Assembly (NCBI RefSeq): GCF_015712165.1
Contig: NZ_JADPZX010000001.1
Coordinates: 124,001 to 188,000, forward strand
Length of the DNA stretch: 64,000 nt
Source: Streptomyces spinoverrucosus
GTDB taxonomy: Bacteria; Actinomycetota; Actinomycetes; Streptomycetales; Streptomycetaceae
Direction of reading: 5' to 3'
Shown: piece by piece, positions 3,455 through 19,124 of the stretch
How the letters are laid out: the number at the start of each line of letters is the position of its first letter
How positions within the stretch are numbered: the stretch's first letter is position 1
Program-made: the position numbers and the translations under genes
The notes under the pieces: generated by a model
Told to the model about the DNA's origin: nothing
Databases searched by the model: none
Seen by the model: the letters and a program-made list of their open reading frames with translations, nothing else

Positions 3455-4738
3455 CTATCGCATGGAACGGAAGCAGTTGCGCAGCTCGGTTACGAAAAGA
3501 TCCGGCTGCTCGAAGGCCGCGAAATGGCCGCCCTTGGGGATGTCGTCGTTCCAGTAGAACAAGTGGCTGTAAGTCCGCTCGGCCCATACCTTCGGCGCCT
3601 GGTAGAGCTCCTTGGGGAACACGCTGACCCCGACGGGCACGTCCACGTTGAGGGTACGGAAGTCGGTGCTGAAGCTCTCGGCGTACAGCCTGGCCGAAGA
3701 TGCGGCCGTGTTCGTGTGCCAGTAGAGGCTGATGTTGTCCAGAATCCGGTCACGGCCGAAGAGCCGGTCGGGGTCCAGGTCGCTGTCGGACCATTGACCG
3801 AGCTTCTCGTAGATCCAAGCCGCCTGGCCGGCGGGAGAGTCGGCCAGACCGTACCCGATCGTCTGCGGCCGGGTCCCCTGCAGCAGCGCGTAGGCGGAGC
3901 CGTCCGTGGAGTAGGCGGTGAGCTGCTTCAGCGCTTCCTGTTCGGCGGGGGTGGGGTCGCCCTCCAGGGGCGGCGGGCCGAACAGGATGGGAAGGTTGAG
4001 GTGGACGGCGGCAAGGGCGGCCGGCTGCTGCTTGGCCATCCAGGTGGTGACACCGGCACCCCAGTCTCCACCCTGCGCGACGTACCTCGAATACCCCAGC
4101 CGCGTCATGAGGGTGTCCCAGGCGGTGGCGATCCTGGGCAGCCCCCAGCCCGTCTCCGTCGGTTTGCCGGAGAAGCCGTAGCCGGGCAGCGCCGGGATGA
4201 CCACGTCGAAGGCGTCGGAGGCCTTGCCGCCGTACGCGACGGGATCGGTGAGCGGGCCGATGACGTCGAGGAACTCCACGATGGAGCCCGGCCACCCATG
4301 GGTGAGGAGGAGCGGCAGAGCACCGCGATGGCGCGAGCGAACGTGGATGAAGTGGATCGGGAGGCCGTCGATCGTGGTGCGGAACTGCGGGAGGCCGTTC
4401 AACCGGCGCTCCAGCCGCCGCCAGTCATAGTGGTCGTGCCAGTATCCGATCAGGTCCCGAACCCGGGACAGCGGGGCGCCCTGTACCCATCCGGGGGCGG
4501 TCTCCCGGTCCGGCAGGCGGGTGGCGGCCAACCTGCTGCGCAGGTCGTCAATGGCACTTTGCGGAACGCGGACCTTGAACGGGACGATCTCGTCGCCTGA
4601 CGGGGTGGGCAGGGCCTCGACGAGATCTCGCAGACCGGCGGAGGTCGCCGCAGCGGCTTGCCCGACCCCGGCTGAGACTGCCAGGGTCGCGGCTCCTGTC
4701 GCCAGCAGCACGCTGCGGCGCGCGAAGGGCTTGGTCAT
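3455..4738 (-). CDS. Secreted epoxide hydrolase family alpha/beta hydrolase
   Basis: 427 residues. The N-terminus FARRSVLLATGAATL followed by AAAATS looks like a Tat export signal. An epoxide-hydrolase N-terminal domain (FKVRVPQSAIDDLRSRLA) is followed by an alpha/beta hydrolase core. HGWPGS near residue 148 is the oxyanion loop, GGDWGA near 217 carries the nucleophilic Asp, and KGGHFAAFEQP near the C-terminus carries the catalytic His. The family opens epoxides to diols, as in the juvenile-hormone/EHN type. An AGGTGA-type palindrome lies at 4775-4793 and a MarR-type site at 4886-4901 upstream. The decayed IS21 element ends just past the stop, which itself is intact. Confidence 0.88.
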   Translation of the reverse strand: MTKPFARRSVLLATGAATLAVSAGVGQAAAATSAGLRDLVEALPTPSGDEIVPFKVRVPQSAIDDLRSRLAATRLPDRETAPGWVQGAPLSRVRDLIGYWHDHYDWRRLERRLNGLPQFRTTIDGLPIHFIHVRSRHRGALPLLLTHGWPGSIVEFLDVIGPLTDPVAYGGKASDAFDVVIPALPGYGFSGKPTETGWGLPRIATAWDTLMTRLGYSRYVAQGGDWGAGVTTWMAKQQPAALAAVHLNLPILFGPPPLEGDPTPAEQEALKQLTAYSTDGSAYALLQGTRPQTIGYGLADSPAGQAAWIYEKLGQWSDSDLDPDRLFGRDRILDNISLYWHTNTAASSARLYAESFSTDFRTLNVDVPVGVSVFPKELYQAPKVWAERTYSHLFYWNDDIPKGGHFAAFEQPDLFVTELRNCFRSMR

Positions 4739-4774: not shown

Positions 4775-4793
4775 AGGTGAGGGCTCATTACCG
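4775..4793 (-). promoter_or_regulatory. Candidate LAL operator, site C (degenerate)
   Basis: AGGTGA-GGGCTCA-TTACCG has the same geometry as the two perfect AGGTGA-N7-TCACCT sites at 11012 and 13601, with a weaker right arm. It sits 37-55 bp upstream of the epoxide hydrolase start, a normal operator position. Confidence 0.45.
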
Positions 4794-4885
4794 GGTGAGG
4801 CCGGGTGTCACTGGCGGAACGGCTCCTGACCGGGCCCCGGGCGGCTGGCGATGAGCCAGGCCCCGCAGGTCCCTCAGACTCAATC

Positions 4886-4901
4886 ACTTTAACACTCAAG
4901 T
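4886..4901. promoter_or_regulatory. Candidate MarR-type operator
   Basis: ACTTTAACACTCAAGT is an imperfect palindrome (ACTT-N8-AAGT) of the style seen before actinobacterial MarR-controlled genes. It lies between the epoxide hydrolase and the MarR remnant. A partial relative (ACTTGAGCATTCACGT) occurs at 5279-5294, upstream of the MarR remnant. Confidence 0.35.
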
Positions 4902-5250
4902 AATCCAGGCGCGCAAGACCCCCAGCGCGAGCAATCGGCGCGGAGCTCTCGGCGCACGGGCGGGCCGATCCACCACCGCATGCGCTCGGCATGCGGGAAA
5001 GCCGGACGGCGACAAACCGGTGCGCTCGGCCGACACGCTCACCCCCAGGGTCCACCGGAGACCCCGGACAGCGTGTCCAAGGCCATGCATTCGACAATGC
5101 CCAGCTTCGCGTCCCGCTGCAGCTGGGCGTCGATGACTCGCAGAGCCGGGCGACCAGGCGCACCACCGACATCCAGGAGGCCGACTCCGCCGACGTGAGC
5201 CACGGGTCGACGCGCTCGTCGACCTGCCGCGACGCGTCAGGGGCGGCCAT
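4896..5250 (-). pseudogene. MarR-family regulator remnant with frameshifts
   Basis: Three frames must be joined. The first gives MAAPDASRQVDERVD and SAESASWMSVVRLVARL from ATG 5250. The second gives VIDAQLQRDAKLGIVECMAL and DTLSG. The third gives LGVSVSAERTGLSPSG. Together these read like the dimer helix and the start of the winged helix of a MarR protein (AERTGLSPS is recognition-helix-like). The wing and C-terminus are scrambled. It probably once controlled the neighbouring epoxide hydrolase. The assignment rests on pattern likeness alone. Confidence 0.55.
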
Positions 5251-5308
5251 TTCGCGAGCACCACGACCCCAGACCAATCACTTGAGCATTCACGTCATCC
5301 ACATGTAT

Positions 5309-5336
5309 CCTAGAGGTTGAACGTTGAACATCTAGG
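5309..5336. promoter_or_regulatory. 28-bp near-perfect palindrome upstream of LAL gene 1
   Basis: The outer arms CCTAGA...TCTAGG and the centre GTTGAACGTTGAAC make 24 of 28 positions symmetric around AACGTT. It lies 60 bp upstream of the MarR remnant start and 215 bp upstream of the LAL gene, so it could serve either. Confidence 0.45.
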
Positions 5337-5431
5337 TTCCTTCGCCGAACGAGGAGCACGTCAGGACGCCGCCGACGACGACGGCCCGCGGCCGGTTCGG
5401 ACCATTGCCTACGGTCCCCATCCCTCTCCCC

Positions 5432-5460
5432 GTTGGGGCGAGGGCGTCACTCGCCCCAAC
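5432..5460 (+). terminator. 11-bp perfect hairpin in the leader before LAL gene 1
   Basis: GTTGGGGCGAG (5432-5442) and CTCGCCCCAAC (5450-5460) pair perfectly around a 7-nt loop, with no T-run after. It may be a factor-independent stop for upstream transcripts or a leader structure. About 90 nt of unassigned leader follow before the start codon. The 214 bp between 5337 and 5550 hold nothing else recognised. Confidence 0.35.
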
Positions 5461-5550
5461 CAGCAGGCCACATTGACGGCGAGTATTCCTGCCTGGACAA
5501 CCGGGTCGTTTGGTTGACAGGCCGATCACGCGGCTGCTACCCAGTGGCCC

Positions 5551-8235
5551 GTGTCGGTCCCCACAGGAGAGCCACAGCACAAACCCGGTCGCCGCGGCTC
5601 GGCAGGAGCGTCCGGTCGGCTGCGGCACATCGATCGGAAGCATCTTGTGGCTGCCCTCGACCGCGCCGCGTCCAGCAAGGTGGCCGTCCTCACGGCGCCG
5701 GCCGGCAGCGGGAAGTCGTCGCTGTTGCGGGCCTGGGCCGATCACCGAGGGCAGCAGCACCGGCTGGTCTTCGTTCAGGTGCAGCGCGACCAGCAGGACG
5801 CCCAGATCTTCTGGCCGGCGTTGCTGAACGCGGTACGCGGCCTGTCGGAAGATCCCGTCAGTGCCGAGCCATCGACGGCATCACCCGACTTCAGCGGGGC
5901 GGCGGTGGTGGACCGCATCCTGTCGGAGCTCGCCGCGCAGACCGGTCGCATCTGCCTGGTGATCGACGATGTCCATGAACTGATCTCCCCGGAGACCTTC
6001 GTCCACCTGAGCCGGCTGCTGACCAACCTCCCCGGGGACGTCCACGCGATCCTGGCGACTCGCCGGGATCTGCCGCTACGACTGCACCGCCTGCGCCTGG
6101 CCGGCCAGTTGGCGGAGCTGCGGGCGGCGGACCTGCGTTTCAGCAAGGACGAGACCCGAGCGCTGCTCGGCGTGACGGGAATCGCGTTGTCGGACACCGC
6201 CGTGGCTCGGCTGCACGCGCGCACCGAAGGCTGGGCCGCGGGTCTGCGACTCGCCACGCTCTCACTCACCGGCCACCCCGACCCCGAGCGCTTCGTCGCC
6301 GAGTTCACCGGCAGCAGCCGCACGGTCGCCGAGTACCTGCTCGCCGAGATGCTCGAGCGGCAGCCGCACGAGGTGCAGAACCTGCTGCTGCGGACCTCGA
6401 TCCTGCAGCGCGTCAACGGCGAGCTGGCCGACAGGCTCACCGGCCGGCCCGGCTCCGAACGCATCCTGCTCGGCCTGGAAGACGCGAACGCGTTCGTCGT
6501 CTCGCTCGACCCGGAGCGGACCTGGTTCCGCTATCACCAGATGTTCGCCGACCTGTTGCGGTTGGAGCTGCGCCGGCTCCTGCCGGACGAAGTGCCCGCC
6601 CTGCACCAACGGGCCGCCGAGTGGCTCACGGAACACGGGCAGACCATCGAGGCCGTCCGGCACCTGCAGGCCGCCGGAGACTGGCCCGAGGCCGCGGCAC
6701 TACTCGCTAAACACTCGTTCGGCCTGATGCTCGACGGCCAGGAAGAAACCATGCAGGCGCTGTTGGACGCTTTCCCGGCGCGCACCGGGGCAGGCTTGCC
6801 GGAACTGAGCGTCGTCCGCACCATGATCGGCCTGGTCCACGGACGCCTCCACGAGGCCGCCACTCACCTGGCAGCAGCCGACGCCTGCGTCGCATCCGCG
6901 GCTGAAGTCGACCAACAAGGGCTCCGGGCTGTGATCGCCGCGCTCAGCCTGTCCCTGGCCAGGCGGCGCGGAGACCTCGCGGAAGTCATACGTCACGCGG
7001 AGTCCCTCATCTCCCCGCCGGACGGCGAATCCGACGAAGAGATCGCGCTGGCCGGAGACCTGCGGGTCGTGGCCCTGATGAACCTCGGAACCGTCGAAGC
7101 CTGGGCGCTGGGGGCCTCCGACGGCGAGCGCCGTCTTCGCGAAGGCGCCGACTTGGCCCGCGTGATCGGCCGACCGTACCTCGAGGTGGCCTGCCTGGCC
7201 CAGTTGGGTTTCGCCTCGAAGCTGACCAACTTCGTGTACGCGCGGCGGCGCTGCCAGGAGGCGATCGCCCTGGCCGAGGAGCACGGCTGGGGCACGGCCT
7301 CGATTGTCGCGCCGGCCTTGATCACCCTGGTCTGCTCGATGATCTGGATGGGTGAGTTCGACGACGCAGAGCGCACCCTGCCGCGTGCCGATGTGGCTCT
7401 GCAGGCGGACAGCGGAGCGGACGTCGGAACCCTGCTCCACCTCGTGAAGGGCATGCTCCATGCCGGTCGCGGCCGGCGACGCGAGGCCGCGCGGGAGTTC
7501 GCCCGGGCGCAGGATCTGCAAGCGCAGTTGTCACACCCGCACGCCCTGGCGGGGTATGTGACCGGGTGGCTGCTGGCCACCCGGGCCCGCCTCGGAGCAT
7601 CCGCTGACGCCCGCATCGCTCTGGAGACGCTCGGCAGCCCACTGATGGACTCGGGTGAGATCTGCAACGCCCGGGCGTCGATCTGCCTGGCCGAAGGCGA
7701 CCCGGCCGGGGCACTCGCCGCGACCGCATCCGTCATCGACGCAAGCGCCTCCGTCGTCCATGTCGCCACCGTCGTGGAGGCGCGGATACTGGCGGCGCTC
7801 GCGCACCGCGAACTCGGAGAGCACAAGCAAGCCCACGAAGCCGTCGAACAGGCCCTCGCGCTCGCCGAGCCCGAACGGCTCGTCCTGCCCTTCGTGATGA
7901 GCGGCGCAGGCGACCTCCTCGCAGCGATGCCGCGCGGCCGGTCGGCCCATGCCGCTCTGCGCAGCGACATCCTCGATGTCATCCAGGGATCGTCCCTGGC
8001 CGCGATGCCCCCGGCGCCGCCGATCCGGGAACTCAGTCCCACGGAACGGCGGGTCCTGCGCTACCTCCCGACAAACCTCTCCCGGCCCGAGATCGCAGGC
8101 GAGCTGTCCATGTCCGTCCATACCGTCAACACCCACGTGCGCAACATCTACGCCAAGCTTCAGGCCACCGAACGTTCCTCGGCGGTGCGCCGTGCGCGGG
8201 AACTGCAGCTGCTTGACGGGGAAGTCCCGCGGTAG
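5551..8235 (+). CDS. LAL (MalT-like) LuxR-family regulator 1
   Basis: 894 residues from GTG 5551. The N-terminal STAND-type ATPase has Walker A TAPAGSGKSSLL near residue 50 and Walker B ICLVIDDVHEL near 140. A long helical TPR-like region follows. The C-terminal LuxR HTH is LSPTERRVLRYLPTNLSRPEIAGELSMS..TVNTHVRNIYAKL. Length and layout match MalT/LAL activators, which bind ATP and an inducer and then activate neighbouring operons. It is closely alike, end to end, to the regulator at 13654-16341. The ligand is unknown. It is convergent with the MFS gene downstream. Confidence 0.9.
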   Translation: MSVPTGEPQHKPGRRGSAGASGRLRHIDRKHLVAALDRAASSKVAVLTAPAGSGKSSLLRAWADHRGQQHRLVFVQVQRDQQDAQIFWPALLNAVRGLSEDPVSAEPSTASPDFSGAAVVDRILSELAAQTGRICLVIDDVHELISPETFVHLSRLLTNLPGDVHAILATRRDLPLRLHRLRLAGQLAELRAADLRFSKDETRALLGVTGIALSDTAVARLHARTEGWAAGLRLATLSLTGHPDPERFVAEFTGSSRTVAEYLLAEMLERQPHEVQNLLLRTSILQRVNGELADRLTGRPGSERILLGLEDANAFVVSLDPERTWFRYHQMFADLLRLELRRLLPDEVPALHQRAAEWLTEHGQTIEAVRHLQAAGDWPEAAALLAKHSFGLMLDGQEETMQALLDAFPARTGAGLPELSVVRTMIGLVHGRLHEAATHLAAADACVASAAEVDQQGLRAVIAALSLSLARRRGDLAEVIRHAESLISPPDGESDEEIALAGDLRVVALMNLGTVEAWALGASDGERRLREGADLARVIGRPYLEVACLAQLGFASKLTNFVYARRRCQEAIALAEEHGWGTASIVAPALITLVCSMIWMGEFDDAERTLPRADVALQADSGADVGTLLHLVKGMLHAGRGRRREAAREFARAQDLQAQLSHPHALAGYVTGWLLATRARLGASADARIALETLGSPLMDSGEICNARASICLAEGDPAGALAATASVIDASASVVHVATVVEARILAALAHRELGEHKQAHEAVEQALALAEPERLVLPFVMSGAGDLLAAMPRGRSAHAALRSDILDVIQGSSLAAMPPAPPIRELSPTERRVLRYLPTNLSRPEIAGELSMSVHTVNTHVRNIYAKLQATERSSAVRRARELQLLDGEVPR

Positions 8236-8241
8236 CCGACT

Positions 8242-8263
8242 GTCATCGGATCCCGGCGATGAC
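8242..8263. terminator. Weak hairpin between convergent genes
   Basis: GTCATCG (8242-8248) and CGATGAC (8257-8263) can pair around 8 nt, right after the LAL stop and facing the MFS stop at 8285. It lacks a T-run. Confidence 0.3.
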
Positions 8264-8284
8264 GGGACACCTGTCGCGGGCCGC

Positions 8285-9499
8285 TCAGCGCTCGGCGGAG
8301 GGCCGGCGTCCCAACAACACCCACCCCGACAGGGAGATGCCCAGCCCGACAAGGATGGCGAACCACAGGACGGTATCGGGCGGACTCGCCCCCTGGTTCA
8401 GGGCGACTCCCGCGCCGATCACAGGTACGGACAGTCCCACGAAGAGTGCGATGAGCAGAGCTGATGTCATCGCGAGACGGTTTTCGGGCGCGGTGGCCTC
8501 GAGGACGATACCGGTGGTCCCCCTGAAGACCGCACCGGCGCCCGCGCCGATCAGCGCACCCCCGAGCAGGAAGAGCGTGAGGCTGGGCGTCGACAGACGA
8601 ACAGAGACCACAAGCAGGACGAGACCGGCGAGCATGGAGGCCGTCCCGGAAGCGAGCACCTGTGGGGCTCGCATCCTGGCCGTTGCCAGCTGGGAAGCCA
8701 CCCCGCAGGTGAACACCAGGAACAGTGTCGCGCCGGACAGCGCGGGTGACGGTCGGTGCAGGGTGGTGGCGAGGAAGAGTCCCGACAGCCCGGCGAACAA
8801 GCCCATCGCGGAGAAGGCCGCCAGGGCTGCGGCCGCGGCCGGAACGGGGAGCCGGACCGAGCCGGGCGAATCAGCCGCACCGCGGTCGGCGACCGGCCCG
8901 GGGGGCGGCGCACCCGTCTCGGGCGTACCGGCCAGGCCGATGAGGGCGACTGCCCCCAGCACGACGAACAGGAGGTAGGACAGAGTCAGTGGCCATCTCG
9001 CCCACTGCGCGAGACAGCCGGCGATCAGTGGCCCGACGCCGAGTGCGCCCACGTTCACCGACGTGCCGATGGTCCGTGCCCGGGCCACCGAGGCCGTGGG
9101 ATCCGCGCGCACCCGCAGCTCGACGAGGTAGGTGATCGCGGTGCCGGCGGCCAGGCCGACGGACACCCCGGTGAGCAGGCGCCCGCCGAGGAGCCCGGGC
9201 AGGTCCTTCCAGGCTGCGAGCAGGCCCGACGCCACCATCATCGTCGCCACGGCGCCGAGCATCACGCCCCGCCGCCCGATGCGCCTGGCCACGGCGTCGA
9301 CGACCCGCAGGGTGGCGATCGTACCGGCGGCGAAGACCGCGTAGACCACGGTGATCGTGAAGGCCGAGAGGTCTTCTCGTGCACGGTAGAGGCCGTAGAG
9401 CGGGCTGGGCAGGGTCGCGAAGGCCATCACGATCAGGAACGCGAACGCGACGGTCCAGAAGCCGTCGAACCTCCCTCTCCGGGAGACCGCATCGGTCAC
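8285..9499 (-). CDS. MFS transporter, probable drug/metabolite exporter
   Basis: 404 residues from GTG 9499. The start overlaps the SDR stop (GTGA), which decides it over longer in-frame extensions. About twelve hydrophobic segments are visible. GRRGVMLGAVATM and GGRLLTGVSVGLAAGTAITYL resemble loop 2-3 and motif C of the MFS. Family members use the proton gradient to export small molecules. Translational coupling to the SDR and isochorismatase-like genes suggests it exports a substrate or product of those enzymes. Confidence 0.8.
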   Translation of the reverse strand: MTDAVSRRGRFDGFWTVAFAFLIVMAFATLPSPLYGLYRAREDLSAFTITVVYAVFAAGTIATLRVVDAVARRIGRRGVMLGAVATMMVASGLLAAWKDLPGLLGGRLLTGVSVGLAAGTAITYLVELRVRADPTASVARARTIGTSVNVGALGVGPLIAGCLAQWARWPLTLSYLLFVVLGAVALIGLAGTPETGAPPPGPVADRGAADSPGSVRLPVPAAAAALAAFSAMGLFAGLSGLFLATTLHRPSPALSGATLFLVFTCGVASQLATARMRAPQVLASGTASMLAGLVLLVVSVRLSTPSLTLFLLGGALIGAGAGAVFRGTTGIVLEATAPENRLAMTSALLIALFVGLSVPVIGAGVALNQGASPPDTVLWFAILVGLGISLSGWVLLGRRPSAER

Positions 9500-10257
9500 C
9501 AGACCCTCATGCCGCCGTCGACGACGAGGTCGATTCCGGTCACGTAGGAGCTGTCGTCGGATGCGAGGAACAGGGCGACGTTCGCCACGTCCTCCGGCTG
9601 GCCGAACCGGCCCAGGAGAGTGCGGTCGACCATCTGGCGGGCCCATTCGCCGTCCGCCAGCTCCCCTCGGGTGGCGTTGCTCTCGATCAGCCCCGGCGAG
9701 ATCGAGTTGACGCGTATCCCGTGCCGGCTTCCCTCCAGGGCGAGCTGGCGCGTCATACCGATGATCGCGGCCTTGTTGGTCGTGTGGGACAGGGCTGGAA
9801 GCTGTTTGAAGCTGAGGGATCCGTTCAGGGAAGCCATGTTCACCACGACTCCGCGGCTGGCCTTCAGGTGCGGCCATGCCGCACGGGTGAGGTAGAAGAC
9901 CAGGTCGACTTCGTCGCGGCGTGCGTCGTCCCAGTCGTCGTCGGTGACGTCCTCCAGCCAGTTGAAGTGGGCTCTGGCGGCGAGGTTGAACAGGACGTCG
10001 ATGCGGCCGAACCGGCTCACGGCGAACTCGACGAGCCGGCTGCTTTCGGCGGGATCGTCGAGGTGGCACGGCTGGAGCGACTCCATCCGGCCACCCTCGG
10101 CATGAACCATCTTGACGGTCTCCTCTGCCGATTCGACCGCCACATCGCAGCCGATGACCAGGGCGCCCTCGCGGGCGAAGGCCAGAGCGGTGGCGCGGCC
10201 CACGCTTCCGCCGGTGCCCGTGATGACGCAGACCTTGCCGGCGAGTCGGCCCGTCAT
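9496..10257 (-). CDS. Short-chain dehydrogenase/reductase with His in place of the catalytic Tyr
   Basis: 253 residues. The cofactor motif TGTGGSVG is near residue 14, then CDVA, DDPAE and NLAARAH. The active-site region reads MASLNGS...ALSHTTNKAA, so the usual YxxxK is HxxxK. Codons CAC-ACG-ACC-AAC-AAG were read directly. PG and GG motifs near the C-terminus (SPGLIESNATRG, VVDGGMRVW) are normal. It starts 1 nt after the upstream hydrolase stop and overlaps the MFS gene, so the three form one operon. Classic SDRs reduce or oxidise carbonyl/hydroxyl groups with NAD(P)H; the substitution may change or weaken catalysis. Confidence 0.88.
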   Translation of the reverse strand: MTGRLAGKVCVITGTGGSVGRATALAFAREGALVIGCDVAVESAEETVKMVHAEGGRMESLQPCHLDDPAESSRLVEFAVSRFGRIDVLFNLAARAHFNWLEDVTDDDWDDARRDEVDLVFYLTRAAWPHLKASRGVVVNMASLNGSLSFKQLPALSHTTNKAAIIGMTRQLALEGSRHGIRVNSISPGLIESNATRGELADGEWARQMVDRTLLGRFGQPEDVANVALFLASDDSSYVTGIDLVVDGGMRVW

Positions 10258-10258
10258 G

Positions 10259-10921
10259 TCAGGCTCCCTGCTGGGACGCGGCTGCGGCGCTTTTCTCCGC
10301 TTCCGCGACGCCGATGTCGGCGGTCAGCTGGGGAACCTCGTTGAAGTACCAGAAGATGACGTCACGAGCCGGGCCGGCCAACGGCGACGCCCAGTCGCGG
10401 AACAGTTCGGTGGTGACCGCGAGCGCCGTGGTGGGAACCGCGCCGGCGTGCGCCAGCCGGTCGATGGCGGTGCGGTGCGCGGTCTGCGAGCGCCCGCCGA
10501 CGGCGTCGGTCACGTACATGACCTCGTAGTCGTCCTTCAGCGCCTGGACGGCTGCGAACGTCAGGCAGATCTCCGTGTGGAGTCCGCCGATGATCAGCCT
10601 CTTGCGCCCGGTCGCTTCGACGGCCTCGCGAAAGGCGTGGTCCTCGAAGGCGTTCATCGACGAGCGGTCGATCGGCTTGATGCCGTCGAGCTCGGAGACG
10701 ATCGACGGGAGGGTCGGCCCGTTGATGCCGAACCGCACTCCCACGGTCGACAGGACGATCGGCATGTCGAATGCCCTGGCCGCCCTGGCCAGCAGCCGGA
10801 CGTTCAGTTCGACGAGGTCGGCGTCGGTCTCCGAGCGGATGACCTCGAACATCTCGTTCTGGTAGTCGATCAGCACCAAGGCGCTGTCCTCGGCGGTCCA
10901 GACGCCCAAGTCCTTCGTCAT
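10259..10921 (-). CDS. Isochorismatase-like cysteine hydrolase (YcaC type)
   Basis: 220 residues from ATG 10921, chosen because GAGGAG lies 7 bp upstream; the longer frame upstream is non-coding. The isochorismatase fold is seen in LVLIDYQNEMFEVI (catalytic Asp), GIKPIDRSSMNAFED and IIGGLHTEICLTFAAVQAL (nucleophilic Cys). YVTDAVGGRS follows. Family members hydrolyse amides or enol ethers (nicotinamidase, YcaC); the substrate here is unknown. It is first gene of a leftward operon (this gene, SDR, MFS) and begins 91 bp from operator site A. Confidence 0.85.
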   Translation of the reverse strand: MTKDLGVWTAEDSALVLIDYQNEMFEVIRSETDADLVELNVRLLARAARAFDMPIVLSTVGVRFGINGPTLPSIVSELDGIKPIDRSSMNAFEDHAFREAVEATGRKRLIIGGLHTEICLTFAAVQALKDDYEVMYVTDAVGGRSQTAHRTAIDRLAHAGAVPTTALAVTTELFRDWASPLAGPARDVIFWYFNEVPQLTADIGVAEAEKSAAAASQQGA

Positions 10922-11011
10922 CGAGTTCTCCTCTGTCTCGGTCAGCCGCAGGGGGTGGCCCGCGGGGCGAGTTGCATGGCGTGTGCTGCGGCCACAGGGT
11001 CTGGCTGGGGC

Positions 11012-11042
11012 AGGTGAGCGGACATCACCTGAACCCGGTGAT
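11012..11042. promoter_or_regulatory. Candidate LAL operator, site A
   Basis: AGGTGA (11012-11017), 7-nt spacer, TCACCT (11025-11030): a perfect 6+6 inverted repeat. After 5 nt it is followed by CGGTGAT (11036-11042). The same arrangement with the same spacings recurs at 13601-13631. It lies between the leftward hydrolase operon and the rightward SnoaL remnant/aldo-keto reductase unit. Confidence 0.65.
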
Positions 11043-11199
11043 TCGGCCGGAGTGCACGGAGCGGACCCGTGGCCGCGTCGATCCCGAACCCTCCCCGCGG
11101 CTCCCACGGGCAGCCGGCGGGGCGGCGCACGCGCTCACCGGATTCTGGCGATGGCCCCTCACCTGGCCGCGCGCGAGGATGGGCGCTGACGAGGGGCAC

Positions 11200-11372
11200 A
11201 GGACGTCGTCGGCTGGTTCGCGATGTTCACCGAGGACGGAACCTTCACCGACGAGTCGATCCCGCGCACCTACCACGGTCGGCCGAGCTCGGCATGACCA
11301 TCGAGGACACCGTCATCGTCCAGCTCTCGCCGCAGGGCACTCACACCGGCCCGCTGGAGCTGCCCGGTGCTC
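11200..11372 (+). pseudogene. SnoaL-like (NTF2-fold) protein remnant
   Basis: The first frame reads VVGWFAMFTEDGTFTDESIP then RTYHGR. After a deletion a second frame reads ELGMTIEDTVIVQLSPQGTH then TGPLELPG. Both halves look like a SnoaL-like polyketide-cyclase/NTF2 domain of small hydrolases and isomerases. The start and the C-terminus are missing. It lies directly before the aldo/keto reductase and was probably part of its operon. Confidence 0.5.
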
Positions 11373-11400
11373 GGCGTCGCGTCACACCATCGGAGGCAGC

Positions 11401-12294
11401 ATGACGTACCGCATGCCCGACCCTGGCTCCGTCGGGACGGGCGCCCTCGGCCGCCGGCAGGTCCGCCGCGTCGGGTACGGCGCGATGCAACTGGCCGGCG
11501 ACAACGTCTTCGGCCCGCCCCGCGACCGGGACGAAGCCCTGCGGGTGCTGCGGATGGCGGTCGACCGCGGGGTCGACCACATTGACACCGCGCAGTACTA
11601 CGGACCGGGCGTGGTCAACGAACTCATCCGCGAGGCCCTGTACCCCTACCCGGCCGACCTGGCGATCGTGAGCAAGGTCGCCGCCCGTCGCGACGACACC
11701 GGCGCGGTCCTGCGCTATGACGCGCCCGACCAGTTGCGCCGGGGGATCGAGGAGAACCTGGTCACGCTCGGCATCAGCCGCCTGGCGGCCGTCAATCTGC
11801 GCATGATGGACCCGTCCGAGGACGGCGAACGGTTCGACGCCCAGTTGGCAGCCCTGATCCGGGCCCGGGACGAGGGCCTGACAGACGGGGTGGGCCTGAG
11901 CAACGTCTCCCGACGGCAACTGCTGCGCGCACTCGCACAGACGGACATCGTCTGCGTGCAGAACCTCTTCAACCTGGCGGATCAGCGGTCTCTGGACGTG
12001 CTCAAGGAGTGCGCGACGCGAGGCATCGCGTTCGTTCCCTTCTGCCCGCTGGGATGGCCGCGGGGTGTTCAGAACCAGATCCTCACCAGCCCCGCGCTTG
12101 CCGCCGTCGGCGAGAAGCTCGGTGCCACGCCGGCGCAGATCGCCCTGGCCTGGTTGCTCGACCTCGCGCCGAACATCCTCCTCATCCCCGGCACCCGTAC
12201 CCGCGCACATCTCGCCGAGAACCTCGGCGCCGCCGAGGTCCGACTCGACGAGGCCGCGCGGGCGGAACTGGCCGCACGATTCCCGGCCCGCTGA
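11401..12294 (+). CDS. Aldo/keto reductase
   Basis: 297 residues from ATG 11401, preceded by GGAGG at 11392. The TIM-barrel signature is HIDTAQYYGPGVVNELIREAL (Asp and Tyr of the catalytic tetrad), then IVSKVAARRD (Lys). The strand that normally ends in the tetrad His reads AAVNLRMMDP, so the His is not obvious. Cofactor-binding parts FVPFCPLGW and IPGTRTRAHLAENLGA are present. It should reduce an aldehyde or ketone with NADPH. The regulatory site A lies 360 bp upstream, with the SnoaL remnant in between. Confidence 0.85.
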   Translation: MTYRMPDPGSVGTGALGRRQVRRVGYGAMQLAGDNVFGPPRDRDEALRVLRMAVDRGVDHIDTAQYYGPGVVNELIREALYPYPADLAIVSKVAARRDDTGAVLRYDAPDQLRRGIEENLVTLGISRLAAVNLRMMDPSEDGERFDAQLAALIRARDEGLTDGVGLSNVSRRQLLRALAQTDIVCVQNLFNLADQRSLDVLKECATRGIAFVPFCPLGWPRGVQNQILTSPALAAVGEKLGATPAQIALAWLLDLAPNILLIPGTRTRAHLAENLGAAEVRLDEAARAELAARFPAR

Positions 12295-12405
12295 CCCGTA
12301 CGACGTCGCCTGCGCAGCTTCGCGGTCATGAGTTCCGCGAACTCGCCAACCACCTGTCTGTTCGGCGCCGGCTACCGGGGCGGCTTCGGCGTCCGGTGGC
12401 CTCGA

Positions 12406-12450
12406 CCGGGCCGGTGCCCGACGCCTTGCGGGAGTCGGGCACCGGCCCGG
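12406..12450. terminator. Strong 17-bp hairpin between convergent genes
   Basis: CCGGGCCGGTGCCCGAC (12406-12422) pairs perfectly with GTCGGGCACCGGCCCGG (12434-12450) around 11 nt. It stands between the stop of the aldo/keto reductase and the stop of the MBL-fold gene, as a two-way terminator would. Confidence 0.7.
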
Positions 12451-12464
12451 AATGCTGTGTCCGG

Positions 12465-13523
12465 TCAGGCGTGGACCTGCGAGCCCACGCCCAGATCCAG
12501 GCGGATGGACTCGAGGATGAGGAAGGTGGTGCTGGCGGTGTAGACGTCGGCGGCGGCGAGGACCCCGGTGTACTTCTTGATCACCGGTGCGGCGGCGTAG
12601 TCGACCTGAGCGGCCTGATAGTGCTTGACCGCGGCCCAGGTGTTGTTGCCGTACTTGACGAAGAACGGTGTCGGGTCGACCGCGCCCAGGGCCTTCTTGA
12701 CGTTGGCGACGATGTCGTTCAGGTACTGCTGGTAGACGACCATGTCGTCGCGGGTGCCGAGCCGCCCCATGTGTCCGCCGATGTAGTGCTTCCACGGGTA
12801 GGCCAGCGCCTTGCCCGGGGCGGCAAGGGAGCCGGGGACGTCCTCGTTGATGTTGAACGTGTCGAACGGCACCCAGCCTGGCAGGTTCACGTCAACCAGC
12901 ATGAGGGTTTCGTGGTCCGGCAGGTGGATGTAGATGTTGTCGGCGGTGTGATTGGTGCCGTGCCAGGTCAGCTTGATGCGCTCCCCGCCGACGCGCAGCG
13001 TGTAGTGCTTGTCGAAGGTGATGTCGGGCACGGGGCGGGTCGGGTCGTTGTCGCGTATCAGCAGCCGCTTGTTCTCGGTGTGACCGAGCCGCGTCACGTC
13101 CTTGCCGAACAGCGACGAGGCACCGAGGTGGTCGGCGTGGTGGTGGGAGTGAACGATGTGGGTCACCTTGTTGGACACGCCGTTGGCGGCGGTGACCTGG
13201 TCGATGGCCCGCTGCAGGTTGTGCCCGATGGTCGGGGGCGCGTCGAAGAGCACGACGCCGTCGCGGGTGGTCAGGAACGCGGCCTGGTAGGCGCTGTCGG
13301 TGACGTAGTACAGGTTCTTGCGCACTCTGCCGACGTAGTAGCCCTGCTCGTTGACCGCCGGGCCGAGCGCCGCCTGCGGGATGGGCGCGTAGTCGGGCAG
13401 ATCGTCGGCGAACGCCGGTTGGGCGAGGGGTCCGCCGGTCAGGGCAGCGGCCGCCGGGACGGCCGCGAGCGCCGCCCCCTTGGCCAGGAAGGTGCGGCGG
13501 TCGGTAGCGGAGTGGGATGACAT
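12465..13523 (-). CDS. Tat-exported metallo-beta-lactamase-fold hydrolase
   Basis: 352 residues from ATG 13523. This start is preferred to ATG 13538 because AAAGGA is well placed before it. The twin-arginine signal DRRTFLAKGAALAAVPAA is followed by a mature MBL domain. The zinc motif HSHHHADH is intact, with HGTNHTADN and LMLVDVNLPGW further on. Such enzymes hydrolyse esters, lactones or beta-lactams; the substrate is not readable. The gene is divergent from LAL regulator 2, with operator site B in the 130-bp interval. Confidence 0.85.
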   Translation of the reverse strand: MSSHSATDRRTFLAKGAALAAVPAAAALTGGPLAQPAFADDLPDYAPIPQAALGPAVNEQGYYVGRVRKNLYYVTDSAYQAAFLTTRDGVVLFDAPPTIGHNLQRAIDQVTAANGVSNKVTHIVHSHHHADHLGASSLFGKDVTRLGHTENKRLLIRDNDPTRPVPDITFDKHYTLRVGGERIKLTWHGTNHTADNIYIHLPDHETLMLVDVNLPGWVPFDTFNINEDVPGSLAAPGKALAYPWKHYIGGHMGRLGTRDDMVVYQQYLNDIVANVKKALGAVDPTPFFVKYGNNTWAAVKHYQAAQVDYAAAPVIKKYTGVLAAADVYTASTTFLILESIRLDLGVGSQVHA

Positions 13524-13600
13524 CGGAGATCCTTTCACCTGAGCAGAGCTGGGGACTCGTCAGCAAATGGCGCGAGATGTGCTCAGGCTCCCCGGCGGAA

Positions 13601-13631
13601 AGGTGAGCGCACATCACCTGATTGCGGTGAT
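13601..13631. promoter_or_regulatory. Candidate LAL operator, site B
   Basis: AGGTGA (13601-13606), N7, TCACCT (13614-13619), then CGGTGAT at 13625-13631, identical in layout to site A. It lies 78 bp from the MBL-fold start and 23 bp from the LAL regulator 2 start, so it could serve both divergent promoters. Confidence 0.65.
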
Positions 13632-13653
13632 CGCCGGGGGTTACGCTGGCCTC

Positions 13654-16341
13654 ATGCCTGAACGAGAGGGCGCAATCCGCCGCTTGGCGCCTGCCGCGGA
13701 CTCGGGCGGCGCTCCGGTCCTGCAAAGTCTGATCAGCCGCCACAGCCTGCTCGACGCGCTGGACCGCGCCGCCGAGCACCAGGTGACGGTCGTCTCGGCG
13801 CCCGCGGGCAGCGGGAAGACCTCGCTGCTGCGCGGCTGGGCCGACGCGGCGGGCCGGGATCGCCGGATCGCCCTGATGACCGTGCGGCCCGGACAGGCGG
13901 ACGCGCAGTTGTTCTGGCTGGCCCTGCTGAGTTCCATCCGTGCGGCCGCCGGCGCCGACGGGCCCACGGAACCGCCCCCGGTGGCACCCGGCTTCAACGC
14001 CGACGCGATGGTGGACAAGGTGCTGTCTGAACTGGCTGCGGCTGAGCGGCCGTTCGTCTTCGTCATCGACGATCTGCACGAACTCACCTCGTCCGCGGCC
14101 GTCGATCAGCTCGCGGCGCTGCTGATGCGACTCCCGTCCGGCGTACACGCCGTCGTGGCCACGCGCCACGACCCGCCGTTGCGTCTGCACCGGCTGCGGC
14201 TTGCCGGGGAGCTGGCGGAGATCCGCGCCGCGCAGCTGCCCTTCACCGTGGACGAGACCCGCGAGCTGCTGACCGTCGCCGGAATCACGCTGTCCGACGA
14301 GGCGGTCGTCACGCTGCATCAACGGACCGAGGGTTGGGCGGCCGGGTTGCGTCTCGCGGCCTTGTCGCTGGCCGGTCACCCCGACCCCGAAGGGTTCGTC
14401 GCCGGCTTCTCCGGCAGTGACCGTGCTGTCGGCGAGTACCTGATGGCGGAGATGCTGGAGCGCCAGCCGCCCGAGGTCCAGCGGTTGCTGCTGCGGACCT
14501 CCGTGCTGGACCGGGTCAACGGCGAACTGGCGGACCTCCTCACCGGCGCCACGGGATCGGAGCGGATCCTGCTCGACCTGGAGGACGCCAACGCCTTCGT
14601 CGTATCGCTCGACGTGAACCGGACCTGGTTTCGCTACCACCGTCTGTTCAACGGCCTTCTGCGGCTGGAGTTGCGTCGAACGGCCGCCGCGGACATCCCG
14701 GACCTGCACCGGGTCGCCGCGCGCTGGTGCGTCGAGCATGCCGAGACCGCTGACGCGATTCGCCACCTGCAGGCCGCCGGAGACTGGAGGGATGCCGCCG
14801 GTCTTCTCGCCGAGCACGCTCTCAGCCTCACCTTGGACGGCCAGGCCGGAACCGTCGCGGAGCTGTTGCGCTCCTTCCCCGCCCAGCCCGGTGAGGACTT
14901 CCCGGACCTGGCACTGGTCCATGCGATCGCCGACCTCACCCACCTCCGCCTGGAGGAGGCGCACGCACACTTGAAGGTCGCCCGCTCCTCCGCCGACACG
15001 GCGGCGCAGGACCGCCGACAGAGGCTGTTCCTGGCCCTCGCGTCCCTGAACCTGCTGTACGCGCGGCTGCGCGGCGACTTCGACAGCGTCTTCGAGCAGG
15101 TCGGCGCCGTGCCCGCCGTGGTGGCCGGCCACTCCGGCGCCGAGGTGGCGCTCGGCAGCGATCTGCGAGCCGTCGCGCTACTGAACCTCGGCGTGACAGA
15201 GGCGTGGTCCATGCGGCTGGCCGACAGCGAGCGGCACCTGCTGGAGGGCGCCGCCCTCGCCCGCGACATCGGCCGGCCGTACCTGGAGGTGGCGTGCCTC
15301 GCTCACCTCGGGTTCACCTCGACAACTCGCTCCCTCACCCTCGCCCGCCATCGCTGCGAAGAGGCGATCACCCGGGCCGCACGCCACGGCTGGGACACCG
15401 AACCGGTGATCGCACCGGCGCTGGTGACCCTCGCCGGCACATTGATCTGGACGGGCGCGTTCGATCACGGCGAAGGGTGGCTCGAGCGCGCCCGACGCGT
15501 CACCTCGCCGGACAGCGAACCCGGCCTGCGGCTGCTCCTCCGCCTGATCGCCGCCGTCCTGCCGGCCGCGCGCGGCCAACACCACGAGGCCCTGGCGGAG
15601 TTCGCCGCCGCCCGCGAAGTCCAGGCGTCGATGCCGGGACGGCACGCGCTGTCCACCCGGGTGACCGCTTGGACGATCGCCACCCAGGCACGCCTCGGCA
15701 TGATCGACGAGGCCCGCAGCACCTTTGCCGCGCTCGACGCCCAGCAGGCCGCCCTCGGTGAGGTCCGCAACGCCGCCGCAGCCATCAGCCTTGCGGAGCA
15801 CGACCCCGACCGCGCCCGCCGCGAGCTTCAGACGATCCTGGACGGAACCGCGCCGGTCAACCACGCCCTCACCCGGCTCGAGGCGCATCTCCTGGACTCG
15901 CTCGCCAGCCGCGAACTGGGCGACGAGGCCGCCGTAGACCTGGCCCTGGCACAGGCGCTGAATCTGGCCGAACCCGAAAGGCTGATCCTCCCCTTCGCTA
16001 TGACCGGCGCCTGGAGGCTGCTGCCAACCCTGCCCGCCCACGGAACATCGCACGCCGCTCTGATCGCCGACATCCTCGACGCCGTCCAGGACGGCACACT
16101 CGGCCCCGCGGAGTGGGCGTCCCCGCTCCCCGCCGAGGAGCTCAGCCCCAGCGAACTCCGCGTGCTCCGCTACCTGCCCACCAACCTCACCCGGCCCGAG
16201 ATCGCGAACGAGCTGTCGGTCTCACCGAACACCGTCAACACCCACATACGCAGGATCTACGCCAAGCTCGGCGCCACCGACCGTTCCTCGGCGGTCCGAC
16301 GGGCACGGGAGGTCGGGCTGCTCGCCCCTGGTTCGGCTTGA
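13654..16341 (+). CDS. LAL (MalT-like) LuxR-family regulator 2
   Basis: 895 residues from ATG 13654; an in-frame extension to 13567 would run through operator site B and was rejected. Walker A is SAPAGSGKTSLL near residue 55 and Walker B is FVFVIDDLHEL. The C-terminal HTH is LSPSELRVLRYLPTNLTRPE...VSPNTVNTHIRRIYAKLGA. It is a paralogue of the 5551-8235 regulator over its whole length (shared WFRYHQMF-type, RAVGEYLMAEMLERQP and IGRPYLEVACLA blocks). With operator B overlapping its promoter it is probably autoregulated. The inducer is unknown. Confidence 0.9.
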   Translation: MPEREGAIRRLAPAADSGGAPVLQSLISRHSLLDALDRAAEHQVTVVSAPAGSGKTSLLRGWADAAGRDRRIALMTVRPGQADAQLFWLALLSSIRAAAGADGPTEPPPVAPGFNADAMVDKVLSELAAAERPFVFVIDDLHELTSSAAVDQLAALLMRLPSGVHAVVATRHDPPLRLHRLRLAGELAEIRAAQLPFTVDETRELLTVAGITLSDEAVVTLHQRTEGWAAGLRLAALSLAGHPDPEGFVAGFSGSDRAVGEYLMAEMLERQPPEVQRLLLRTSVLDRVNGELADLLTGATGSERILLDLEDANAFVVSLDVNRTWFRYHRLFNGLLRLELRRTAAADIPDLHRVAARWCVEHAETADAIRHLQAAGDWRDAAGLLAEHALSLTLDGQAGTVAELLRSFPAQPGEDFPDLALVHAIADLTHLRLEEAHAHLKVARSSADTAAQDRRQRLFLALASLNLLYARLRGDFDSVFEQVGAVPAVVAGHSGAEVALGSDLRAVALLNLGVTEAWSMRLADSERHLLEGAALARDIGRPYLEVACLAHLGFTSTTRSLTLARHRCEEAITRAARHGWDTEPVIAPALVTLAGTLIWTGAFDHGEGWLERARRVTSPDSEPGLRLLLRLIAAVLPAARGQHHEALAEFAAAREVQASMPGRHALSTRVTAWTIATQARLGMIDEARSTFAALDAQQAALGEVRNAAAAISLAEHDPDRARRELQTILDGTAPVNHALTRLEAHLLDSLASRELGDEAAVDLALAQALNLAEPERLILPFAMTGAWRLLPTLPAHGTSHAALIADILDAVQDGTLGPAEWASPLPAEELSPSELRVLRYLPTNLTRPEIANELSVSPNTVNTHIRRIYAKLGATDRSSAVRRAREVGLLAPGSA

Positions 16342-16465: not shown

Positions 16466-17218
16466 TCAGGGCGCTGTGTCGAGGTCCACGGCGAGGTCCG
16501 GGCTGTCGTTCCAGAATCCGTCGTCGGCGTCCTGGAGCCGCAACGCGGCGTGCTTCAGATGGAGGCGTGCGGCGGCGCGGGCCGACTCGGCGGCGCGGGC
16601 CTCGATGGCGGCGAAGATGGCGTGGTGTTCGTGGCGGACGGCTTCTATGAAGTCCTGGCGCCGCGCCTCGTTCGCGCGGGTGACGCGGATGCCGCCGCGC
16701 AGCACCTCGCCCAGGTAGCGGACGGTCGAGACCATCACGGCGTTGCCGGTCGACTCGGCGATGGACTGGTGGAAGGCGAGGTCCTCGTCCACGCCGTCAC
16801 CGCCGGCCGCCACGGCCGCGTCGATCGCGTCGAGGGCCCGGCTCATCCGGGCCAGGTCGTCCGGGGTGGCTCGGGCGGCCGCGAGGTACGCCGCCTCGCC
16901 CTCGATGGGGCGGCGTACCTCCACGATCTGCAGCACCTTGGCCTTGGTGTCGGCGGCCTCGGCCTCGAGGTCGAGCGGCCTGGTGCGGCGGGGCAGGACG
17001 AACACGCCGCGGCCCTGCCGTGGTTCGACCAGGCCCGCGTTGCGCAGCCGCGACACGGCCTCTCGTACGACCGTACGGCTGACGCCCAGCTGCTTGACCA
17101 GTTCCACCTCGGTCGGCAGCTTGTCGCCCTCGGCCAGCCGCCCGGACTCGATCTCGTCCGCGAGTACCGCGGCGACCTGGTCCGCGAGCCGCACGGGACC
17201 GCTCACCTTGGAAAACAT
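16466..17218 (-). CDS. GntR/FadR-family regulator of the tetronate operon
   Basis: 250 residues from ATG 17218. The N-terminal winged helix is GDKLPTEVELVKQLGVSRTV then VREAVSRLRNAGLVEPRQGR. The C-terminal FCD ligand domain contains DLAFHQSIAESTGN and RHEHHAIFAAIEARAAESAR, whose His residues usually bind metal and acid ligands. It is the last gene of the leftward operon, 5 nt after denD. FCD regulators usually repress sugar-acid catabolic genes until the acid binds; the 21-bp palindrome at 23402 is the obvious target. GAAAAC-ATG-GTTTTC, a second small palindrome, overlaps its start codon. Confidence 0.88.
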   Translation of the reverse strand: MFSKVSGPVRLADQVAAVLADEIESGRLAEGDKLPTEVELVKQLGVSRTVVREAVSRLRNAGLVEPRQGRGVFVLPRRTRPLDLEAEAADTKAKVLQIVEVRRPIEGEAAYLAAARATPDDLARMSRALDAIDAAVAAGGDGVDEDLAFHQSIAESTGNAVMVSTVRYLGEVLRGGIRVTRANEARRQDFIEAVRHEHHAIFAAIEARAAESARAAARLHLKHAALRLQDADDGFWNDSPDLAVDLDTAP

Positions 17219-17223
17219 GGTTT

Positions 17224-18279
17224 TCAGTCTATCGGCACGGACCGTTCCACCCGGGCGGAGTGGGCCGACGCATCGATGACCACCGCCTTGGCGTGGTCCT
17301 CCATGTACTGGCGCAGCACCGATTCGAAGCTCGGGTCGGGCTTCAGCCCCAGTGCCGCGGCGCGCGCGTTGTCGAAGACGGCGGGCCACGAGCCGACGAT
17401 GGCCTCGACCCCGGGGTCGGGCGTGACCGTCACGAGGTCGGCCACCGGGTCGCCTGCCACCCGCCGCAGCGTGGCCAGCATCTCGGCGACCGATACCGTC
17501 AGCGCGGGAAGGTTGACCGGCACGCCACCGTCCAGCCGACCCGGCCCGGCTCCTCGTACGGCCTCGGCGATGCGGAGGATGCCCTCCACTGTGCGCCGTG
17601 GCGAGGCCAGGGCCACCCGCAGGCCGGGGTCGACCGGGCAGGTGGCCGGCAGGCCGGAGAGAGGTTCGCGGATGATGCCGGACAGGAAACCGGAGGCGGC
17701 CGCGTTCGGCTTGCCCGGCCGCACGGCCACGGTCATCAGGCGGGCGACGCGTCCGTCGACGAATCCACGGCGGGTGTAGTCGGCGATCAGCTGCTCGCAG
17801 ACGAGTTTCTGGGTGCCGTAGCTCGACCGTGGTGTGGGCAGGGTCGACTCGCTGACCACCTGCGGCAGCGGCAGCATCGGGTCGGAACCGTAGACCGCGA
17901 CGCTGCTGGAGAACACCACGCGCACCGTCGCCCCGCCCGCGGCGGACTGCGTCCGGGCGGCTTCGAGCAGAGCGCGGGTGGTGTCCAGGTTGGCGCTCAT
18001 GCCGAGGTCGAAGTCGGCCTCGCACTCGGCCGAGACCGCGGAGGCGAGGTGGATCAGCACATCCACCGGCTTGGCGAACACCTCGTCGAGACTGTCGCGG
18101 AGGTCGCCCGGTACGACGTTCACGAGGGGATCGTCCGCCTCCGGCGACCCCGCGGGCACGAATCGGTCGGCGAGCACGAGCCGGTCGATCGGCGCACCCT
18201 CGAATGTCCGGGCCTGGAGCAGTGCGGCGGCCAGCTGCCGCCCCAGGAAGCCGAAGCCGCCCGTGATGACGATCCTCAT
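17224..18279 (-). CDS. denD: D-erythronate dehydrogenase (NAD-dependent epimerase fold)
   Basis: 351 residues from ATG 18279, overlapping the otnI stop (ATGA). The extended-SDR motif [14 protein letters not shown] is at the N-terminus, with [10 protein letters not shown] and [12 protein letters not shown] (YxxxK active site) further on. DenD members oxidise D-erythronate to 2-keto-D-erythronate, which OtnI isomerises, OtnK phosphorylates and OtnC cleaves (published functional work on acid-sugar pathways). The neighbouring genes supply these steps. Confidence 0.8.
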
Positions 18280-19088
18280 GCCTGGTCCCTCCGGTTGCTT
18301 CGGTAGTCGTTCAGCCAGCCGAGCCCCTCGCTCGTGCCGGACTCGGGGTGGTATTCGCAGCCGATCCATCCGTCGAAGCCCAGTTCGTCGACGACGTCGA
18401 ACAGGTGCCGGATGTCGAGTTCCCCGCGGTCGGGTTCGTGGCGGTCGGGCACGCCGGCGATCTGCAGATGGCCGACCCGGCCGGTCGGCACGTCACGGCG
18501 CAGCGTGGTGGTGAGGTCGCCCTCGACGATCTGGCAGTGGTAGAGGTCGAGCTGCACCTTGAGATTCGGGGCCCCGACCTCCTGGACCAGGCGGTGCGCC
18601 TCGCCCTGCGTGGTGAGGAAGTATCCGGGCATGTCGCGGCCGTTGATCGGCTCGATCAGGACGTCGACGCCGGCGTCGGCCGCCCGTCCCGCCGCCCAGG
18701 CGAGGTTGGCCAGGTAGGTGTCCCGGTGCTTGGCCCGCTCCCCCGCGGTCGCGTCCGGTCGTACGAGCCCGGCCATCACATGCAGCCGGGGGCAGCCCAG
18801 CGCGGCGGCGTACTCCAGCGCCCGGTCGAACCCGGAGCGCAGCTCCGCCTCACGTCCGGGCAGCGCCGCCACGCCGCGCTCCCCGGAGTTCCAGTCTCCG
18901 GGGGGCGCGTTGAAGAGCACCTGCCGCAGGCCGTGGTCGTCGAGCCGGCGGCGCAACTCTGCGGCGTCGTAGGTGTAGGGGAAGAGGTACTCGACGGCCT
19001 CGAAGCCGTCCGCCGAGGCCGCGGCGAAGCGGTCGGGGAAATCGTGTTCGGTGTACATCATGGACAGGTTCGCGGCGAACCTCGGCAT
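18276..19088 (-). CDS. otnI: 2-oxo-tetronate isomerase (hydroxypyruvate isomerase family)
   Basis: 270 residues. A xylose-isomerase-like TIM barrel: [20 protein letters not shown], then [44 protein letters not shown] and [10 protein letters not shown]. Glu and Asp/His residues in these strands bind the metal. OtnI isomerises 2-oxo-tetronate to 3-oxo-tetronate before phosphorylation. The stop overlaps the denD start by 4 nt. Confidence 0.85.
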
Positions 19089-19124
19089 GCCGGCTCTCCT
19101 GATCGAGGACCCTCAGGGGGTCCG

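Follow-up and report, generated by a model that had tools for sequence, protein, structure and literature searches.

A conserved three-half-site element, probably an activator operator, that follows one type of LAL regulator in Streptomyces spinoverrucosus and related genomes

The stretch of DNA examined here, referred to as the window, comprises 64,000 nucleotides of the genome of Streptomyces spinoverrucosus (genome G000, 8,854,993 bases; NCBI RefSeq assembly GCF_015712165.1, contig NZ_JADPZX010000001.1, here C1, positions 124001-188000). It carries genes for two LAL (MalT-type) regulators, LAL1 and LAL2, together with enzyme and transporter genes, some of which are preceded by copies of a palindromic element. 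Comparison of this genome with others indicates that the element is conserved and that it follows one LAL type in both presence and position. We consider it probable (roughly 0.8) that the element is the activator operator of a single LAL clade, driving a mobile set of detoxification or catabolic genes.

The element and its distribution

Aligned on the coding strand, 78 copies define the element as ATCACCnGAWTCCGGTGA-N7-TCACCT-N10-xAnnnT. A MalT-type core (ATCACCnGAWTCCGGTGAT) is joined by a third half-site, TCACCT, 7 bp closer to the gene, and by a -10 box, xAnnnT, at a fixed distance; the three half-sites are spaced 12 bp apart and alternate in orientation. Within the -10 box the A (88%) and the last T (89%) are conserved and other positions show weaker preferences, while no TTGAC-like -35 sequence occurs in the place expected for it (alignment positions 18-23). 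Seven of the 78 copies look like chance matches; read by eye, these are without the -10 A and T, and six come from non-LAL genomes and one from a LAL genome (G078, locus L039).

Because the search pattern had required all three half-sites, we also searched for the bare core. The third half-site was present within one mismatch on one side of 42 of the 44 exact TCACC-N7-GGTGA cores (29 loci, 609,220 bases), and the -10 letters were in place in 39 of those 42, against 2.1% expected by chance. This one-sided placement suggests that the third half-site sets the direction of the element. When the gap between TCACC and GGTGA was varied, 44 cores were found at gap 7 and 0-11 at other gaps, the 11 at gap 8 resembling coding sequence. 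Four other word pairs used as a control gave 0-2 matches at each gap; they replaced a first pair, CCACT/AGTGG, which was a poor control because its words are rare in this DNA.

Within the S. spinoverrucosus genome the element is highly specific. The perfect palindrome AGGTGA-N7-TCACCT occurs at three places and the same pattern read backwards at none; the third perfect palindrome, at C1:6253829, is absent from the matches to the full pattern. With up to three mismatches, the full pattern is found at five places, all within C1:82,888-137,631 (control, 0). A sequence model built from 52 sites of other genomes only recovers five sites when run on this genome (E 4e-13 to 6e-8; next best 0.017). 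These five strong sites span 54.8 kb and lie among three LAL paralogues, three of them in the window and two upstream of it. The latter, C1:82,872 and C1:87,849, are the best two of the five model matches; one precedes a SnoaL-like gene and the other a molybdenum hydroxylase operon, 4-9 kb from the third paralogue, LAL3. Next in rank are C1:75909, directly upstream of LAL3 (E 0.017), and an other-strand overlap of the 82.9-kb site (E 0.017). On the site matrix used below, training sites score 29.9 to 67.7 bits; one of the 53 training sites is omitted from alignment A2 because of a one-base shift in its -10 box.

We fetched 78 LAL loci (1.51 Mb), the best 78 of 220 candidates, by protein alone, using an alignment of the three S. 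spinoverrucosus LALs. When up to 0, 1, 2, 3 and 4 mismatches were allowed, the pattern taken from this genome gave 9, 29, 54, 75 and 97 matches there, and the reversed pattern gave none at any level. Loci with a matrix site become fewer with distance from LAL2: where the LAL is at least 60% identical they make up 18 of 18, followed by 10 of 11 at 52-60%, 2 of 3 at 48-52%, 6 of 22 at 43-48%, 0 of 16 at 36-43% and 1 of 8 below 36%. In a tree of 75 of the 81 LALs (six fragmentary or very distant proteins were omitted), a single branch (SH-aLRT 100) holds 33 rows, and 32 of these have sites; the exception, L099, is an incomplete LAL match.

Similarly, among 120 genomes chosen by kinship, the window's own included, the element is present in all 11 with the LAL type (defined as E 1e-120 or better) and in 1 of the 109 others (Fisher 1e-14), and that one has a LAL fragment at a contig edge (55% identity over 371 amino acids). 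Since some of these genomes hold near-copies of training loci, a search with the pattern of the S. spinoverrucosus genome is the cleaner test: at up to two mismatches it matches in 11 of 11 LAL genomes against 5 of 109 others (G006, G064, G073, G080 and G103), and at up to one mismatch exclusively in LAL genomes. Of 33 strong sites, 28 lie within 5 kb of a LAL gene and 31 on a contig with one. The recognition helix follows a related pattern, in that loci whose LAL reads TV[N/S/D]TH have sites in 31 of 32 cases and those with K/R at the variable position in 8 of 39 (10 of 81 were unreadable). This position, which contacts DNA in NarL, is a candidate determinant of the change from GGATGA to GGTGA half-sites.

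These results revise a preliminary description of the window made from its letters alone, which had proposed a self-contained LAL-regulated island marked by AGGTGA-N7-TCACCT followed by CGGTGAT at +5. The perfect palindromes at 11012-11030 and 13601-13619 are indeed present and rare genome-wide, and each is followed by GA-N3-CGGTGAT; what had been described is the inner half of the core plus the third half-site, with the outer half of the core as the CGGTGAT part. Random frequency and lack of conservation, named beforehand as signs against the proposal, were not seen, as the palindrome is rare and is conserved beside orthologues. One copy, on the opposite strand at 11133-11182 in the interval that also holds the 11012 site, had been missed. 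The link to LAL regulators thus holds, with the element following LAL type and orthologues led by sites, whereas three other parts of the proposal do not. The set is not self-contained, given that two of the five sites and the third LAL sit 36-48 kb upstream of the window. The epoxide hydrolase gene drops out of the regulon, with its supposed site failing and its sole orthologue of at least 40% identity in the 78 LAL loci not led by a site. LAL2, described as its own target, has no site facing it, and the 11012 and 13601 sites point to the isochorismatase operon and the MBL gene. More generally, no site was found facing its own LAL from directly upstream, either in the window or, by eye, in the site listing. 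However, only 22 bp separate the core of the 13601 site from the first ATG of LAL2, and steric autorepression of LAL2 from this site is possible.

The weak palindrome copy reported at 4775 was rejected as a site. It differs from the bare palindrome by two mismatches, at which level the window contains five matches and shuffles 1.57. On the site matrix the stretch 4775..4793 (+) reaches -12.8 bits; it is missing from the 50 whole-genome model matches (E <=10) and is without a -10 box in place.

Activation and its alternatives

If the last T of the -10 box is placed at -7, the core would span about -53 to -35, with the third half-site at about -28 to -23. A bound LAL would take the place of the -35 contact and would activate transcription given a ligand plus ATP, as in MalT; the lack of a TTGAC-like -35 fits such activator dependence. 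The closest known system, judged by operator and locus, is MalT of Actinoplanes sp. SE50/110. According to PMC7567727, this MalT-like activator of the LuxR type governs an extensive local stretch of poorly annotated genes, whose order is likewise shuffled in relatives, and its palindrome overlaps the -35 region, with the 3' end 34.4 +/- 1.0 nt from the start. The 17-bp geometry also agrees, TCATCC-N5-GGATGA there and TCACCG-N5-CGGTGA here having the common form TCAYCS-N5-SGRTGA. Thus, with inferred starts, place and geometry match while the hexamer is CGGTGA and not GGATGA (CACC as against CATCC in the half-site); the target genes are other ones, and a third half-site is not mentioned in the accessible text of that paper. 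The core end near -35 and the shared geometry together point to a MalT-type activator operator with an extra promoter-proximal half-site.

Other characterised LAL systems are less alike. MalT of E. coli and Klebsiella belongs to the same family and its box also overlaps the -35 region, but MalT boxes are direct repeats of the GGGGA(T/G)GA type, whereas the half-sites of the element alternate. TpdR, at the tetramethylpyrazine promoter of Rhodococcus jostii TMP1, is an actinobacterial LAL activator of a catabolic operon with an organic inducer, but it has 788 amino acids and its proposed site is a direct 15-nt repeat (PMC6099782). SCO6993 and SCO0877/SCO7173 are LAL regulators of Streptomyces coelicolor, a species with 14 putative LALs (PMC3282765), but they have roles in antibiotic and phosphate control (PMC9628970, PMC3282765), and the SCO6993 sites are without common consensus in the words of that paper (PMC9628970). 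The element is unreported among the literature matches listed on LAL sites, operators, regulons and footprints, a coverage from which subscription papers are mostly absent, and a query with operator strings gave unrelated papers among the matches listed; with coverage so limited, this is weak evidence of novelty.

The same LAL could instead act on the element as a repressor, blocking RNA polymerase until a ligand releases it, and a protein bound over about -53 to -23 can also block; the Streptomyces LAL SCO6993 does act negatively (PMC9628970). Against this stand the want of a TTGAC-like -35 at the right spacing and the agreement in position with the activator of Actinoplanes, and we regard repression as unlikely. 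If another DNA-binding protein owned the element, such as PhoP or an unlinked regulator, the LALs would be mere neighbours. PHO boxes contain TCACC (GTTCACCCGCC; PMC6784220), and two of the 33 strong sites are on contigs without such a LAL. However, PHO boxes are direct 11-nt repeats of the GTTCACCCGCC type, whereas the half-sites here are inverted with N7 gaps; further, presence and position follow LAL, and all five S. spinoverrucosus sites are near LALs, which leaves an outside owner very improbable. Still harder to credit is that the element is simply a promoter copied along with mobile genes, with no LAL-specific role. The genes of the set do occur in different arrangements from locus to locus, as mobile genes would, but sites before unrelated gene families share only half-sites and -10 box while their flanks are unlike, and copying alone leaves the tie to one LAL type unexplained.

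Several observations weigh against an activator operator of one LAL clade. Besides the two strong sites on contigs without such a LAL, there are genomes G075, G078 and G079, whose LALs are all just 42-44% identical to LAL2 and do not belong to the tight clade; two of these genomes have the site on the LAL contig about 10 kb away. The probability given above is unaffected by these three genomes, since neither the pattern test nor the core test depends on them. The model test is partly non-independent, as shown by an identical small protein shared by G011 and the training locus L051, and the matrix that labels loci for the identity trend and the helix counts was trained on the same loci. Eight of the 39 K/R loci also carry sites, and since the tree requires about two changes from K/R to N/S, the helix correlation is not one of independent events and is no statistical proof. 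With transcription predicted to start near 10989 (-), 11187 (+) and 13578 (-) in the window, the leaders implied by the -10 positions would be 55-214 nt long. No counterpart of the molybdenum hydroxylase genes occurs in the 78 LAL loci at E 1e-20. Finally, the three paralogues of this genome, whose recognition helices are similar, probably share the five operators, and any of the three may act at a given site.

If the element is the activator operator of this clade, it provides a genome-scannable operator for the whole clade, and along with it a group of recurrent targets, transcription starts that can be predicted and a residue that may determine specificity. Simple reporters would then be enough to test which genes are targets, and the element would be an inducible promoter once the signal is known.

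Target genes and a small protein

Targets were taken from matrix sites of at least 22 bits in the 78 loci, the window and L009, the locus of the two upstream sites. Of these 94 sites, 88 have a correctly oriented gene that starts no more than 500 bp away (the other six were tallied by eye), and the 132 proteins of the target units fall into 41 groups. Recurrent among them are MBL-fold hydrolases, SDRs, aldo/keto reductases, alpha/beta hydrolases and SnoaL-like proteins, as well as MFS pumps, F420H2-dependent quinone reductases, zinc-type dehydrogenases and a protein of about 75 amino acids. At L070, for instance, an isochorismatase, SDR and MFS gene with 80%, 78% and 74% identity to those of the window stand in the same operon order behind a site. 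Among orthologues of at least 40% identity, those led by a site number 15 of 19 for MBL, 6 of 10 for aldo/keto reductase, 2 of 3 for isochorismatase, 2 of 5 for SDR, 1 of 1 for MFS and 1 of 3 for SnoaL, counts that are too low to the extent that the 80-bp operon rule misses site-led genes. The genes at 16466-20432 of the window have no counterpart in LAL loci at E 1e-20. In S. spinoverrucosus the operators thus probably serve the isochorismatase-SDR-MFS operon, the aldo/keto reductase, the MBL hydrolase, the SnoaL-like protein and the molybdenum hydroxylase operon. That these oxidoreductases, hydrolases and transporters would fit detoxification or catabolism of a small organic compound is the weakest step in our argument.

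The protein of about 75 amino acids is encoded directly behind LAL in many loci (for instance L051:12739-12972; rows of alignment A3). The start of its gene lies 4-6 bp beyond the modelled element, where transcription is expected to begin, so the gene is probably leaderless. The protein was matched in 40 of the 120 genomes and is thus more widespread than the LAL type, but the query that found it in relatives had no match in the window's genome. There, directly behind LAL1, is a weak match that is probably a decayed operator where relatives have a live one, though it may be chance (Table 1). Sequence comparison with Pfam, NCBIfam and the PDB gave no match for the small protein. Its AlphaFold2 model (beta-alpha-beta-beta-alpha-beta, mean pLDDT 84.5) predicts an ACT/ferredoxin-like fold; no PDB fold matched at E <=0.001, and the best, an ACT domain, did so at E 0.006, which is not significant. 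By eye, the small-protein gene is preceded by GGTGA/TCACC half-sites even where the LAL is a distant one (L109, L112 and L101), and the half-site may be older than the LAL clade.

MalK, MalY and Aes tune MalT. We tentatively suggest, as a combination that we do not expect to hold in full, a clade-specific three-half-site activation geometry, a small ACT-like ligand-binding partner that tunes LAL, and a derived state of the window's genome. If this is true, a LAL oligomer covers about -53 to -23 and so reaches into the -35/-10 spacer, with the third half-site setting direction, the small protein tunes LAL as those three proteins tune MalT, and this genome lost the small partner while multiplying the regulator. 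In any case, the analysis brings out an uncharacterised small protein family linked to LAL genes.

Features of the window

The three LALs have 894, 895 and 873 amino acids (LAL1, LAL2 and LAL3), with LAL1 55% and LAL3 63% identical to LAL2. All have AAA_16/AAA_22 and the motif APAGSGK[TS], as well as PF00196 at 828-882, 829-884 and 807-860, respectively, while PF17874 stays below its gathering score (34.7-36.6 vs 45 bits). The PDB relative of LAL2 is MalT (8bob, E 8e-36), and at 252.7 bits LAL2 falls short of the MalT equivalog NF003420 of NCBIfam (cut-off 537). The gene types of the preliminary description (epoxide hydrolase, isochorismatase, SDR, MFS and both LALs) were confirmed, with the MBL gene weakly matched in Pfam (20.9 bits, cut-off 27; relatives in other loci match PF00753). 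By a Tat-like start read by eye, the MBL-fold hydrolase is probably exported.

Table 1. Predicted operators and annotated genes of the window
Feature	Position	Strand	Evidence or parts	Remark
EHN-type epoxide hydrolase	3455-4738	-	Pfam	
LAL1 regulator	5551..8235 (alternative start 5647)	+	AAA, MalT-type TPR, GerE	894 aa
Decayed operator candidate	8241..8290	+	14.7 bits; model E 0.34 for 8246-8280	directly behind LAL1
Isochorismatase-SDR-MFS operon	8285-10921	-		
MFS transporter	8285..9499	-	PF07690	
SDR oxidoreductase	9496..10257	-	PF13561, PF00106	
Isochorismatase-family cysteine hydrolase (YcaC-like)	10259..10921	-	PF00857; NF041461 122 bits, below cut-off	
Operator-promoter 1 (predicted)	10994..11043	-	core 11024-11042, third half-site 11012-11017, -10 box GACCCT 10996-11001; 47.3 bits; E 6.4e-8 in own genome	would drive isochorismatase-SDR-MFS
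Operator-promoter 2 (predicted)	11133..11182	+	core 11134-11152, third half-site 11159-11164, -10 box GAGGAT 11175-11180; 44.4 bits; E 9.0e-9	faces aldo/keto reductase
Aldo/keto reductase (AKR)	11401..12294	+	PF00248; NF007695 above cut-off	
MBL-fold hydrolase	12465..13523	-	weak PF12706	19 orthologues in LAL loci
Operator-promoter 3 (predicted)	13583..13632	-	core 13613-13631, third half-site 13601-13606, -10 box GAGCCT 13585-13590; 48.8 bits; E 6.0e-8	would drive MBL gene
LAL2 regulator	13654..16341 (alternative start 13684)	+	Pfam domains	895 aa; in site-bearing clade of tree

Operators standing back to back before divergent genes, as at 10994-11182 of the window, also occur at L061, L080 and L096. 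Between this pair and the AKR gene, two short stretches in different frames (about 11199-11376) match SnoaL-like proteins encoded near the AKR of relatives and look like a relic gene.

At L009, a short stretch with terminal inverted repeats, recognised by eye, lies between the molybdenum hydroxylase and XdhC genes (about 11868-12044; G000:C1 about 83868-84044). XdhC matches its own Pfam model only from position 28, perhaps because it was truncated by a small mobile element. The same locus has another palindrome, of the GGCAGGCAGCCTGC type (about 6683-6735, 8825-8845 and 9705-9760, by eye), adjoining a second MFS gene, a small regulator-like gene and a second isochorismatase; it perhaps marks another local regulon.

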